This document shows positions 32,157 through 35,440 of a stretch of 64,000 nucleotides of DNA, one piece after another. Position 1 is the first letter of the stretch. Each line of letters starts with the position of its first letter. Below the pieces are notes generated by a model. The model was not told the origin of the DNA. It searched no databases and worked only from the letters and a program-made list of their open reading frames with translations. Source of the stretch: Flagellimonas meridianipacifica (GTDB lineage: Bacteria; Bacteroidota; Bacteroidia; Flavobacteriales; Flavobacteriaceae); the NCBI RefSeq assembly GCF_003001695.1, contig NZ_PVYX01000001.1, positions 806,001-870,000 on the forward strand, read 5' to 3'. Made by a program: the position numbers and the translations under genes.

Positions 32157-34055
32157 ATGAGTGATCCTATTAAGCACGAATGCGGAATATCACTGGTCCG
32201 TTTGCTTAAACCTCTTGAATACTACAAGGAAAAATATGGTACGGCATTTTATGGGGTGAACAAAATGTACCTCATGATGGAAAAACAGCATAACCGAGGA
32301 CAGGATGGTGCTGGATTTGCAAGTATAAAATTGGATATGAACCCAGGAGAGCGGTATATGAGCAGGGTTCGGTCCATACAACAACAACCCATCCAAGATA
32401 TTTTTGCCCAAATCAATGATCGTATAAACAATGTTTTGGCAGAGCATCCCGAGTTTGAAGATGACGTGCAACTGCAAAAGAAGAACATCCCATACATTGG
32501 TGAGCTTCTATTGGGACATGTACGTTATGGCACGTTTGGTAAAAATAGCATCGAAAGCGTACACCCTTTTTTAAGGCAGAACAATTGGATGCATCGTAAC
32601 CTTATTGTGGCCGGAAACTTTAACATGACAAATGTTACAGAGCTTTTCGAAAATCTTGTGGAACTCGGACAGCATCCAAAGGAATTGGCAGATACTATTA
32701 CCGTAATGGAAAAAATTGGCCATTTCTTGGATGATGCCGTAGCCAAAATCTACAAGGATATTAAAAAAGAAGGGTATAGCAAAAGAGAAGCCTCTCCAAT
32801 TATTGCCAAGAGACTCAATGTTGCCAAAATACTACGCAAATCATCCAAAAATTGGGATGGTGGTTATGCTATGGCCGGGCTATTGGGCCATGGTGATGCC
32901 TTTGTGTTTCGTGATCCTGCAGGTATTCGCCCGGCTTACTATTACAAAGACGATGAAATAGTGGTAGTTGCTTCGGAAAGGCCAGCCATACAAACCGTAT
33001 TCAATGTTCCCTTTGAACAAGTACAGGAACTTGACCCGGGGCATGCTATAATAATAAAGAAAAAGGGGAGCGTCCATCTAGAGCAAATTATTGAACCCAA
33101 AGAAAGAAAGGCCTGTTCTTTTGAGCGTATTTATTTTTCTAGGGGAAGTGACCAAGAAATCTATCAAGAGCGAAAAATGCTTGGCAAACTGGTTTTTCCT
33201 CAAATCTTGAAAACTATTAATGACGATTTGACGAATACCGTTTTTTCATATATCCCAAATACCGCTGAAACTTCCTTTTTGGGAATGGTCAAAGAAGCCC
33301 AGAATTATTTGAATCGTAAAAAGGAAGAACAGATTTTGTCTTTGGGAAACAATATTACCCGAGCGAAACTGAACGCTATTTTAGATGTAAGACCACGTAT
33401 AGAGAAAGTGGCTATAAAGGATGCCAAACTTAGGACCTTCATTACTCAAGACAGTAGTCGTGACGATTTGGTTACCCATGTTTATGATATTTCGTACGGC
33501 TCTGTGAAGCCCAACGACAACTTGGTCATTATAGATGATAGTATTGTACGTGGTACTACCCTTAAAAAAAGTATCCTTAAGATTTTGGACCGATTGAATC
33601 CGAAAAAAATTGTGGTCGTTTCATCCGCTCCGCAAATTCGCTATCCTGATTGTTATGGTATCGATATGGCTAAATTGGAAGACTTTGTAGCTTTTAGAGC
33701 TGCATTGGAGCTGCATAAAGAAAGAGGTACTATGTCCATTGTCGATGACATCTATCAAAAATGTATTGAACATAAAAATTCAAAAGATACTGAAGCCGTC
33801 AACCACGTTAAAGAATTTTACGCTCCATTCAGCGCTCAAGAGGTTTCTCAAAAAATCGGAGAGATATTAAAACCCGAAGTAATCAAAGCAGAGGTAGAAA
33901 TCATTTACCAGGGCATTGATAATCTTCATAAAGCGTGTCCACAAAATTTAGGAGATTGGTATTTCACTGGAGATTATCCAACGCCTGGTGGAAACAGAGT
34001 TGTGAACAGGGCTTTTATCAATTTCTACGAGGGCAAAAACGAAAGGGCATATTAA
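32157..34055 (+). CDS. PurF-like amidophosphoribosyltransferase (long paralogue)
   Basis: A 632-residue protein, longer than the usual ~470-510 of PurF. The N-terminal class II glutamine amidotransferase domain has Cys9 after an eight-residue leader (MSDPIKHECGIS), then GHVRYGTFG. The phosphoribosyltransferase domain carries the PRPP signature LVIIDDSIVRGTT (~456-468). Insertions with many charged residues account for the extra length. Canonical PurF makes phosphoribosylamine from PRPP and glutamine; whether this long form does the same is not proved. A terminator lies 3 nt upstream. Confidence 0.85.
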   Translation: MSDPIKHECGISLVRLLKPLEYYKEKYGTAFYGVNKMYLMMEKQHNRGQDGAGFASIKLDMNPGERYMSRVRSIQQQPIQDIFAQINDRINNVLAEHPEFEDDVQLQKKNIPYIGELLLGHVRYGTFGKNSIESVHPFLRQNNWMHRNLIVAGNFNMTNVTELFENLVELGQHPKELADTITVMEKIGHFLDDAVAKIYKDIKKEGYSKREASPIIAKRLNVAKILRKSSKNWDGGYAMAGLLGHGDAFVFRDPAGIRPAYYYKDDEIVVVASERPAIQTVFNVPFEQVQELDPGHAIIIKKKGSVHLEQIIEPKERKACSFERIYFSRGSDQEIYQERKMLGKLVFPQILKTINDDLTNTVFSYIPNTAETSFLGMVKEAQNYLNRKKEEQILSLGNNITRAKLNAILDVRPRIEKVAIKDAKLRTFITQDSSRDDLVTHVYDISYGSVKPNDNLVIIDDSIVRGTTLKKSILKILDRLNPKKIVVVSSAPQIRYPDCYGIDMAKLEDFVAFRAALELHKERGTMSIVDDIYQKCIEHKNSKDTEAVNHVKEFYAPFSAQEVSQKIGEILKPEVIKAEVEIIYQGIDNLHKACPQNLGDWYFTGDYPTPGGNRVVNRAFINFYEGKNERAY

Positions 34056-34149
34056 CACTACGATTAACAATAAGTTAATGTGTGCATTTCGTCGATGAAA
34101 CCTGCATATTGTCGGGTTTTTGGCAATCACGTAAATGTCAAACCTACTT

Positions 34150-34231
34150 TAGTATTGCCATAGCATAAGTAGGTTAAGTTCATGGTAAGATTTGGGGCAA
34201 AAAAGGTGGAAAATTTTCCACCTTTTTTATT
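34150..34231 (+). ncRNA. Tandem small RNA unit, copy 1
   Basis: A 39-nt core at 34158-34196 (starts CCATAGCATAAGTAGG, ends ATGGTAAGATTTGGG) is followed by a 30-nt perfect palindrome (34199-34228: AAAAAAGGTGGAAAA and its complement) ending in T6. A near -7 box, TAGTATTG (34150-34157), directly precedes the core. No ORF of coding quality covers it. The three copies fill most of the 660-nt stretch between the PurF-like gene and sodA. Transcript bounds are estimates. Confidence 0.7.
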
Positions 34232-34361
34232 TTCCATCCAACTTTCTTTTCTCTTCGTAGTCCTTTTCCTTGGCATTCGTGTCTTCTCTCGACTCATATG
34301 GTAATTCAACCAAATTACTGGGGTTTCGTCTAAAAGCTTTTCATCTACAACAGGGTCACCT

Positions 34362-34446
34362 TACTTTTGGAGAACCATAGCATAAGTAGGTTAAGTTCAT
34401 GGTAAGATTTGGGGTAAGAAGGCGGAACAATGTTCCGTCTTCTTTG
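34362..34446 (+). ncRNA. Tandem small RNA unit, copy 2
   Basis: The core at 34375-34413 is identical to copy 1. The terminator hairpin (34416-34444) has a different sequence, AAGAAGGCGGAACA paired with TGTTCCGTCTTCTT, so pairing is kept while bases change. A perfect -7 box TACTTTTG lies at 34362-34369, five bases further from the core than in copies 1 and 3. Confidence 0.7.
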
Positions 34447-34549
34447 TATTTGAACCCCAAGGTTTTAAGGTTTTCTACCTTTTGTTTTTCACTCCTCAAA
34501 TCAAAAATTTCTTTAAAAACTTTTGTTATTTCTCACAATACCAGTAATT

Positions 34550-34631
34550 TAGTTTTGCCATAGCATAAGTAGGTTAAGTTTATGGTAAGATTTGGGACGA
34601 AAAGGGTGGGAGCTTTCCCGCCCTTTTCTAT
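34550..34631 (+). ncRNA. Tandem small RNA unit, copy 3
   Basis: The core at 34558-34596 differs from copy 1 by one base (C to T before ATGG). The terminator hairpin (34600-34627) is AAAAGGGTGGGA paired with TCCCGCCCTTTT, again a new sequence with kept pairing. A perfect -7 box TAGTTTTG is at 34550-34557. Sequence between the copies is unrelated, so the repeat is the RNA unit and not a simple long duplication. Confidence 0.7.
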
Positions 34632-34648
34632 TTGCGAAGTTTTACAAT

Positions 34649-34690
34649 AAAAAAGCCCGGTAATCTTACTGATTATCGGGCTGCTTTTTT
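34649..34690 (-). terminator. Terminator after sodA
   Basis: A-run, stem AGCCCGGTAATC with GATTATCGGGCT (one mismatch), and T-run; symmetrical, so it can work from both sides. It follows the sodA stop on the minus strand by ~26 nt. Confidence 0.7.
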
Positions 34691-34715
34691 AAGATAGAAT
34701 CCTTTCTAAACCTGC

Positions 34716-35324
34716 TTATTTGTTGGCATTGTAATACTCAGAAACTTTATCCCAGTTAATTACATTGAAAAAAGCCGAAATGTAATCTGGTCTTCTGTTT
34801 TGATAGTTAAGGTAGTATGCGTGTTCCCAAACATCCAATCCCAAAATTGGGTATCCTTCACATCCAGTATCAGGCATTAGTGGATTATCCTGATTGGGAG
34901 TAGAGCAAACCTCCAACTTTCCCCCTTTATGAACACAAAGCCAAGCCCATCCAGAGCCGAATCGGGTTCCTGCGGCCGAAGTAAATTTCTCCTTAAAGCT
35001 ATCAAAAGAACCAAAGGCCTCGTCAATAGCGGAAGCCAAATCACCTGAAGGAGCTCCTCCTCCATTCGGGGACATTACTTCCCAAAACAAACAGTGGTTA
35101 TAAAAACCTCCTCCGTTATTTCTTACTGCTCCGTTGGACATGTCCATGCCAGACAAAATATCTTCAATACTCTTACCTTCCAAATCGGTTCCGGCGATTG
35201 CGCCATTTAATTTTGTGGTATACCCATTATGGTGCTTTGTATGGTGGATTTCCATAGTGCGGGCATCTATATGAGGCTCTAGCGCATCGTACGCATAGGG
35301 CAAATTAGGTAATTCAAAAGCCAT
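34716..35324 (-). CDS. sodA: Superoxide dismutase (Fe/Mn)
   Basis: A 202-residue protein of normal length. Metal ligands can be placed: His in [13 protein letters not shown], His in [11 protein letters not shown], and Asp and His in [16 protein letters not shown]. It converts superoxide to peroxide and oxygen. Mn versus Fe use cannot be settled by eye. A TATTTTTA box (35360-35367, minus strand) may be its -7 element. Confidence 0.95.
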
Positions 35325-35440
35325 AATTATATCATTTTTAAGTTATTAATTGCTTCCTGTAAAAATACGGTTTTATCGTCTATTTCATGGCAATCCAATA
35401 TTAAGTTAAGAAGGGTTATGCGTAATTTGCAAAAAAACTT

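Follow-up and report, generated by a model that had tools for sequence, protein, structure and literature searches.

A 64,000-nt stretch of a Flagellimonas/Allomuricauda genome (hereafter the window) carries three near-identical short units on its plus strand, and the question raised by this locus is whether they are genes for small RNAs and, if so, on what these RNAs would act. The units occupy the 660-nt gap between an ORF at 32157-34055 (plus strand), which by its sequence is presumably a purF homologue, and an ORF at 34716-35324 (minus strand), presumably a sodA-like superoxide dismutase. An earlier note on this DNA had read them as three paralogous small RNAs acting through a shared core. 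This reading is supported here, at a length of about 73 nt, by recurrence across the family, by terminators that stay paired and by matching sites at start codons, and we consider it quite likely that the units are sibling genes of base-pairing sRNAs that would repress the translation of envelope genes.

Architecture of the array

Each unit consists of a core followed by a terminator. Unit 1 spans 34158-34230 (core 34158-34196, stem-loop 34199-34228), unit 2 spans 34375-34446 (core 34375-34413, stem-loop 34416-34444) and unit 3 spans 34558-34631 (core 34558-34596, stem-loop 34599-34628). The 39-nt core, CCATAGCATAAGTAGGTTAAGTTYATGGTAAGATTTGGG, is identical in units 1 and 2 and carries a single C-to-T change at 34581 in unit 3, all of which agrees with the positions and copies reported in the earlier note. 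A repeat search groups the units into one family of 83-nt copies, in which two copies match the reference copy at 81% and 86% identity, and the remaining repeats within 33400-35400 are 12-21 nt long. No fourth copy of the unit was detected in the same genome by blastn at E ≤ 0.001; the fourth match obtained there is the palindromic terminator of unit 1 in reverse reading.

Folding assigns a 13-bp terminator hairpin to every unit and yields z-scores against shuffled sequences of -3.3, -3.6 and -4.0. A terminator scan reports the terminators of units 1 and 2, and that of unit 3 is absent from its list. The shared core had been thought to be single-stranded, which holds in prediction for GUAGG in a hairpin loop and for the linker behind the hairpin, less clearly so in unit 3, and does not hold for core nt 1-28, which are predicted to form this hairpin in each unit. 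No compensatory change occurs among 16 distinct diverged cores, so that the 5' hairpin stays a prediction. Here, two stretches deserve attention as candidate seeds: the loop AGTAGGTTAA of unit 1 (34169-34178, plus strand, with its equivalent in units 2 and 3), which complements TTAACCTACT, and the linker ATTTGGGG of unit 1 (34190-34197, plus strand), a candidate second seed. By eye, DNA resembling CCCAAATC is seen 3' of several terminators, in the window at 34447-34462 and also in loci L072-L082; it is complementary to the linker GATTTGGGG and could extend the hairpin in read-through transcripts.

The order of a -7 type box, core and hairpin described for each unit in the earlier note can be retraced, with the boxes read by sequence. 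Unit 2 has a putative box that matches TAnnTTTG exactly (TACTTTTG, 34362-34369), and units 1 and 3 have similar boxes with one mismatch each (TACTTTAG, 34145-34152; TAATTTAG, 34545-34552) as well as alternative box candidates (TAGTATTG, 34150-34157; TAGTTTTG, 34550-34557), all on the plus strand. Between box and core lies a spacer of 5 nt in all three units. Given a register of -12 to -5 for the flavobacterial sigma-A box, as reported in a study of Flavobacterium psychrophilum (PMC9723704), the predicted transcript would start 1 nt 5' of each core. A scan for E. coli-type promoters finds nothing at the units, as is expected for promoters of the flavobacterial type. Each copy would have a promoter of its own in addition to the terminator that is present.

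Conservation and copy types in Flavobacteriaceae

Absence or lost pairing in close relatives, which the earlier note had named as evidence against its reading, is not what the genus presents. A unit match at E below 1e-9 occurs in 34 of 35 other genomes, one of these matches being a fragment at a contig edge (G014), and the sole exception is a genome that is 83% complete (G007; match at E = 0.012). The covariance search of related genomes suggested in the same note extends this to the family: a covariance model, which contains three wrong terminator pairs from RNAalifold and is mainly a core profile (R1), matches 204 of 249 sampled genomes, representing 194 of 235 genera with one to seven matches each, and leaves 45 genomes unmatched, and blastn with unit 3 matches 198 of the 249. 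In samples of the order (26 of 196 genomes) and the phylum (23 of 247), searched under stricter filters by which weak matches can be lost, every match falls into the same family. Among the matches listed, holders include Maribacter, Zobellia, Arenibacter, Robiginitalea, Eudoraea and Cellulophaga. Of 202 loci, 176 have a purF homologue next to the array and 176 a sodA homologue; in this set, chosen mostly through a promoter pattern, many loci stop short of the neighbor and some share a genome. The purF neighbor is kept in distant genera at 60-75% identity. Neither exact pattern nor blastn searches found viral, plasmid or phage copies of the unit.

Across 645 distinct unit windows, picked by a fixed core pattern that misses more diverged units, only 20 core sequences occur, and two of them make up 540 windows. 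The terminators behave differently: a stem of at least 8 bp is kept in 639 of 642 units across 151 different left arms, so that hairpins differing in sequence yet remaining paired, first noted for the three units of the window, turn out to be a general property. Cores start sharply at the expected transcript start and the boxes keep their register relative to the core. Invariant cores combined with varied, still-paired terminators point to selection on an RNA whose core is functional and whose terminator can be exchanged.

The copies also fall into types according to their place in the array. The first type carries GGGGCAAAA 3' of the core (unit 1), the middle type GGGG[AT]A 3' of the core (unit 2) and the last type a T at core position 24 together with GGGACGA 3' of the core (unit 3). 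Promoters of the types were compared in 231 units from 85 loci chosen by the core alone, repeating an earlier comparison made partly on loci picked by promoter pattern. GGGAC follows the core in 39 units, each of which closes its array and has the T at position 24. Over the 22 columns preceding the last-type box, the information content is 35.8 bits in these 39 units and 33.9 bits in 12 non-redundant units, as against 4.0 and 7.8 bits in the other two types, which indicates that the last copy has a conserved control region of its own. In the window, this region is placed by alignment at 34503-34555 (plus strand) and holds TTTTGTTATTTCTCACAATACCAG and the box TAATTTAG. In the same genome, an exact match to the last-copy promoter is confined to the array, and a search allowing up to three mismatches gives no sign of a regulon (six sites, array included, against five for the reversed control).

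Some further observations concern the surroundings of the units. A second conserved intergenic element of the genus lies behind a DUF3078 gene (L128:1047-1200; C1, about 1151546-1151700, in the genome of the window), with relatives in L129-L135 and L138-L140. This related locus, about 311 kb from the array, was initially assumed to be a fourth copy and then rejected as such. It carries the motif CCA..AAGTAGGTTAAG..ATGG in the same sense as the unit, a stretch resembling GAATTTGGGG upstream and what may be a 14-codon ORF, has no Rfam match, and may be a derived sibling RNA. Its pattern is found exactly in this genome only among 249 family genomes, a search that would miss diverged forms, and a one-mismatch site occurs in another genus (G141:C29:183530-183551). 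In L379, L380, L381, L382 and L383, inserts of several kb with lipoprotein-like genes separate the first and second unit, the one in L381 matching the polymorphic-toxin domain Tox-MPTase3, and wide gaps are also seen in L221, L247 and L255. In addition, parts of the 3' half of the unit, 15-22 nt long (GGTAAGATTTGGGA or longer), recur elsewhere in relatives (L147 near 1007-1060, L142 near 1090-1115, L141 near 1050-1110). The fragment in L147 adjoins a phage-type integrase gene, and the unit may serve mobile elements as an attachment site.

Loop-complementary sites at start codons

The earlier note had also proposed looking for targets complementary to the core, and loop-matching sites are indeed found at start codons, beyond what random positions give. 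When the loop complement TTAACCTACTT was searched in eight genomes of the genus with no position required, 53 matches were obtained, of which 25 belong to units, 8 to the related locus and 20 to other places. Eight of these 20 lie in sense at a start codon and represent five gene groups, four of them falling in one orthologous gene; the share expected at start codons is about 2% by our own arithmetic, based on how densely genes are packed in the window (60 ORFs in 64 kb).

A second search looked for TTAACCTACT followed by a nearby ATG in 30 genomes of the genus and returned 68 rows, or 66 distinct sites. Fifteen of the 66 were set aside as the antisense string of the related locus (nine of them read, six judged by the string). 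Among the remaining 51, 34 lie at starts of four recurrent families and are spread over 25 of the 30 genomes. Of these sites, 18 belong to a small lipoprotein-like protein, 9 to one PorP/SprF protein and 3 to a second, and 4 to a TonB-receptor-like protein. The other 17 are inside genes, without an ORF, or doubtful. Family names follow Pfam and NCBIfam, with two assignments being our own reading: the TonB-receptor-like protein is matched in its carboxypeptidase-regulatory domain alone, and the protein called a lipoprotein matches no family. Under a strict rule that demands an ORF of at least 80 aa and excludes sites within a 150-aa frame, 24 of the 51 sites pass, compared with 34 of 3040 randomly chosen positions that have an ATG at equal distance. 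The step from 34 family starts to 24 is made up of one contig-edge ORF and ten sites with a frame open upstream, minus one passing site outside the families. Any single target family is matched in at most 17 of the 30 genomes, in searches that require an exact match, so that the species kept are selected for the site and orthologs lacking it stand outside the counts.

In the genome of the window, the PorP/SprF site (C1:983886) precedes the start codon by 5 nt, and the gene directly upstream has a 3' end that resembles a T9SS type B sorting domain. A PorP/SprF gene of another genus (L420) has the equivalent site and likewise directly follows a gene with such a 3' end. These two are among the 6 of 12 sites at ORF starts in a 70-genome family sample, in which exact 11-nt sites before an ATG occur in 11 genomes; the other four belong to a CAP-domain protein, a lipoprotein-like protein, a choice-of-anchor L protein and a small ORF. 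One site of this sample (L419) resembles a unit in reverse. Two further candidates were rejected, namely a site over codons 4-7 of an ORF in the genome of the window (L360), which may be a chance product of a common signal-peptide start, and a site 21 nt inside an ORF (L361), which was left out of the count. Within the window itself, the best duplex of the loop with a target is weaker than the mean best duplex of shuffled loops.

Predicted duplexes reach -32.3 kcal/mol for the PorP/SprF mRNA of the same genome and -35.5 kcal/mol for the lipoprotein mRNA of G009, and in the lipoprotein mRNAs the predicted pairing spans nearly the whole core. In all 18 lipoprotein leaders tested (17 of the 18 lipoprotein sites and one from G035), the loop site is preceded at no more than 25 nt by CCC[AG]A[AT], which matches the linker GAUUUGGGG. 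Measured against shuffles, linker pairing reaches or approaches significance in three lipoprotein leaders (0.003-0.06) and is mixed for the receptor-like gene, and for PorP/SprF such pairing of the second seed does not reach significance.

Known RNAs, competing explanations and a proposed role

None of 4227 Rfam families matches the units at its cut-off, and the sole match in the window is a tRNA elsewhere. The best weak match in the region is STnc40 (31 bits against a cut-off of 45, E = 0.0019), which concerns unit 1 only, occurs also on the reverse strand of its terminator and was taken as chance. A link to Flavo-1, which the earlier note had raised, finds no backing: this motif of Weinberg et al. 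is likewise found in flavobacteria, but its covariance model matches the units neither at the cut-off nor among 39 weaker matches up to E = 10. The closest analogy is offered by FopS (RF04319), reported as a family of paralogous Bacteroides sRNAs that represses envelope (SusC) mRNAs at their 5' ends (PMC11697453). Both would be multicopy Bacteroidota sRNAs with a conserved seed near the 5' end and a terminator hairpin, traits common to many sRNAs, whereas the units differ in standing in tandem beside purF, in a core that is near-identical across the family and in a seed placed in a predicted hairpin loop. Membership in RF04319 was rejected (19.9 bits against a cut-off of 56, E = 1.5), and the best reading is that the units would act like FopS while belonging outside its Rfam family.

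Among flavobacterial sRNAs, the F. psychrophilum study reports 85 new RNAs (PMC9723704). Its Rfp RNAs include Rfp18, which shows conservation within its genus and whose predicted partners are mRNAs encoding secreted proteases and an adhesin. Rfp18 pairs through a third stem-loop, whereas the units have two; one of the 85 new RNAs may be the RNA considered here. Among the open-access papers listed by the searches, no description of this RNA appeared, and a search with the letters of the core returned two unrelated matches. In other phyla, the Neisseria siblings and Listeria LhrC1-5 are several near-identical sRNAs with one seed, as the units would be. The LhrC copies of Listeria stand in tandem.

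Other functions for the array can be weighed against these data. If the RNAs were protein decoys or parts of an RNP, in the manner of CsrB, the core would bind a protein and the copies would titrate it. This would fit a core conserved over its whole length, far beyond the needs of a 7-12 nt seed, and the same-sense motif at the second locus of the genus; however, it leaves unexplained the antisense copies of the loop at the start codons of four recurrent families, and the near-whole-core pairing predicted in lipoprotein mRNAs would also explain the conservation of the core. We hold a decoy to be unlikely. A distinctly lower probability is given to an element that works as DNA only, be it as a terminator array, an attachment site or a repeat, with no functional RNA. 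Such an element would agree with the mobile-element insertions between units 1 and 2 in some species and with the unit fragments that adjoin an integrase gene in a relative, but not with terminators that change their sequence while keeping their pairing, with boxes that hold register and cores that begin sharply where transcripts should, or with the lack of phage, plasmid and viral copies in the searches made. A short peptide read from AUGGUAAGAUUUGGGG within the core is very improbable: an AUG does lie within the conserved core, yet many units are without one A after AUGGUA (GGTAAGATTT vs GGTAGATTT), which shifts the frame, and the frame enters the variable terminator.

Under the preferred explanation, the three units would be sibling genes of one trans-acting sRNA of about 73 nt, each transcribed from its own promoter and ended by an intrinsic terminator. 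The RNA would present the loop AGUAGGUUAAG and, behind the hairpin, the open linker GAUUUGGGG. In the cell, the loop would pair with sites of the type TTAACCTACT located shortly before the start codons of envelope mRNAs, which encode a small lipoprotein, a TonB-receptor-like protein and two PorP/SprF partners of type IX secretion, and would block the initiation of translation; repression as the outcome is inferred from the position of the sites upstream of start codons. On the lipoprotein mRNA, the linker would also pair with the upstream CCCAAAT element. Several copies would provide dose as well as separate control, the last copy answering to its own conserved promoter. A wider proposal, to which we give an even chance, is that the whole core of about 39 nt, comprising loop, linker and 5' end, is one antisense guide for mRNAs encoding type IX secretion partners and further envelope proteins, and that the array is a core post-transcriptional regulator of the Flavobacteriaceae surface, absent from Rfam, with position-specific copy types, the last on a dedicated, strongly conserved promoter for a separate signal.

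Flavobacteriaceae are gliding, polysaccharide-degrading bacteria, and judging from the match of part of their sequence to start sites of surface-protein mRNAs, these sRNAs probably control the surface display of flavobacteria. The units would constitute a new RNA family for Rfam. An array conserved nearly letter for letter in most sampled genera, together with predicted sites on PorP/SprF mRNAs, makes a post-transcriptional control of type IX secretion and gliding directly testable. If the guide proposal is true, a separate signal acting through the promoter of the last copy could set surface composition, adhesion and gliding.
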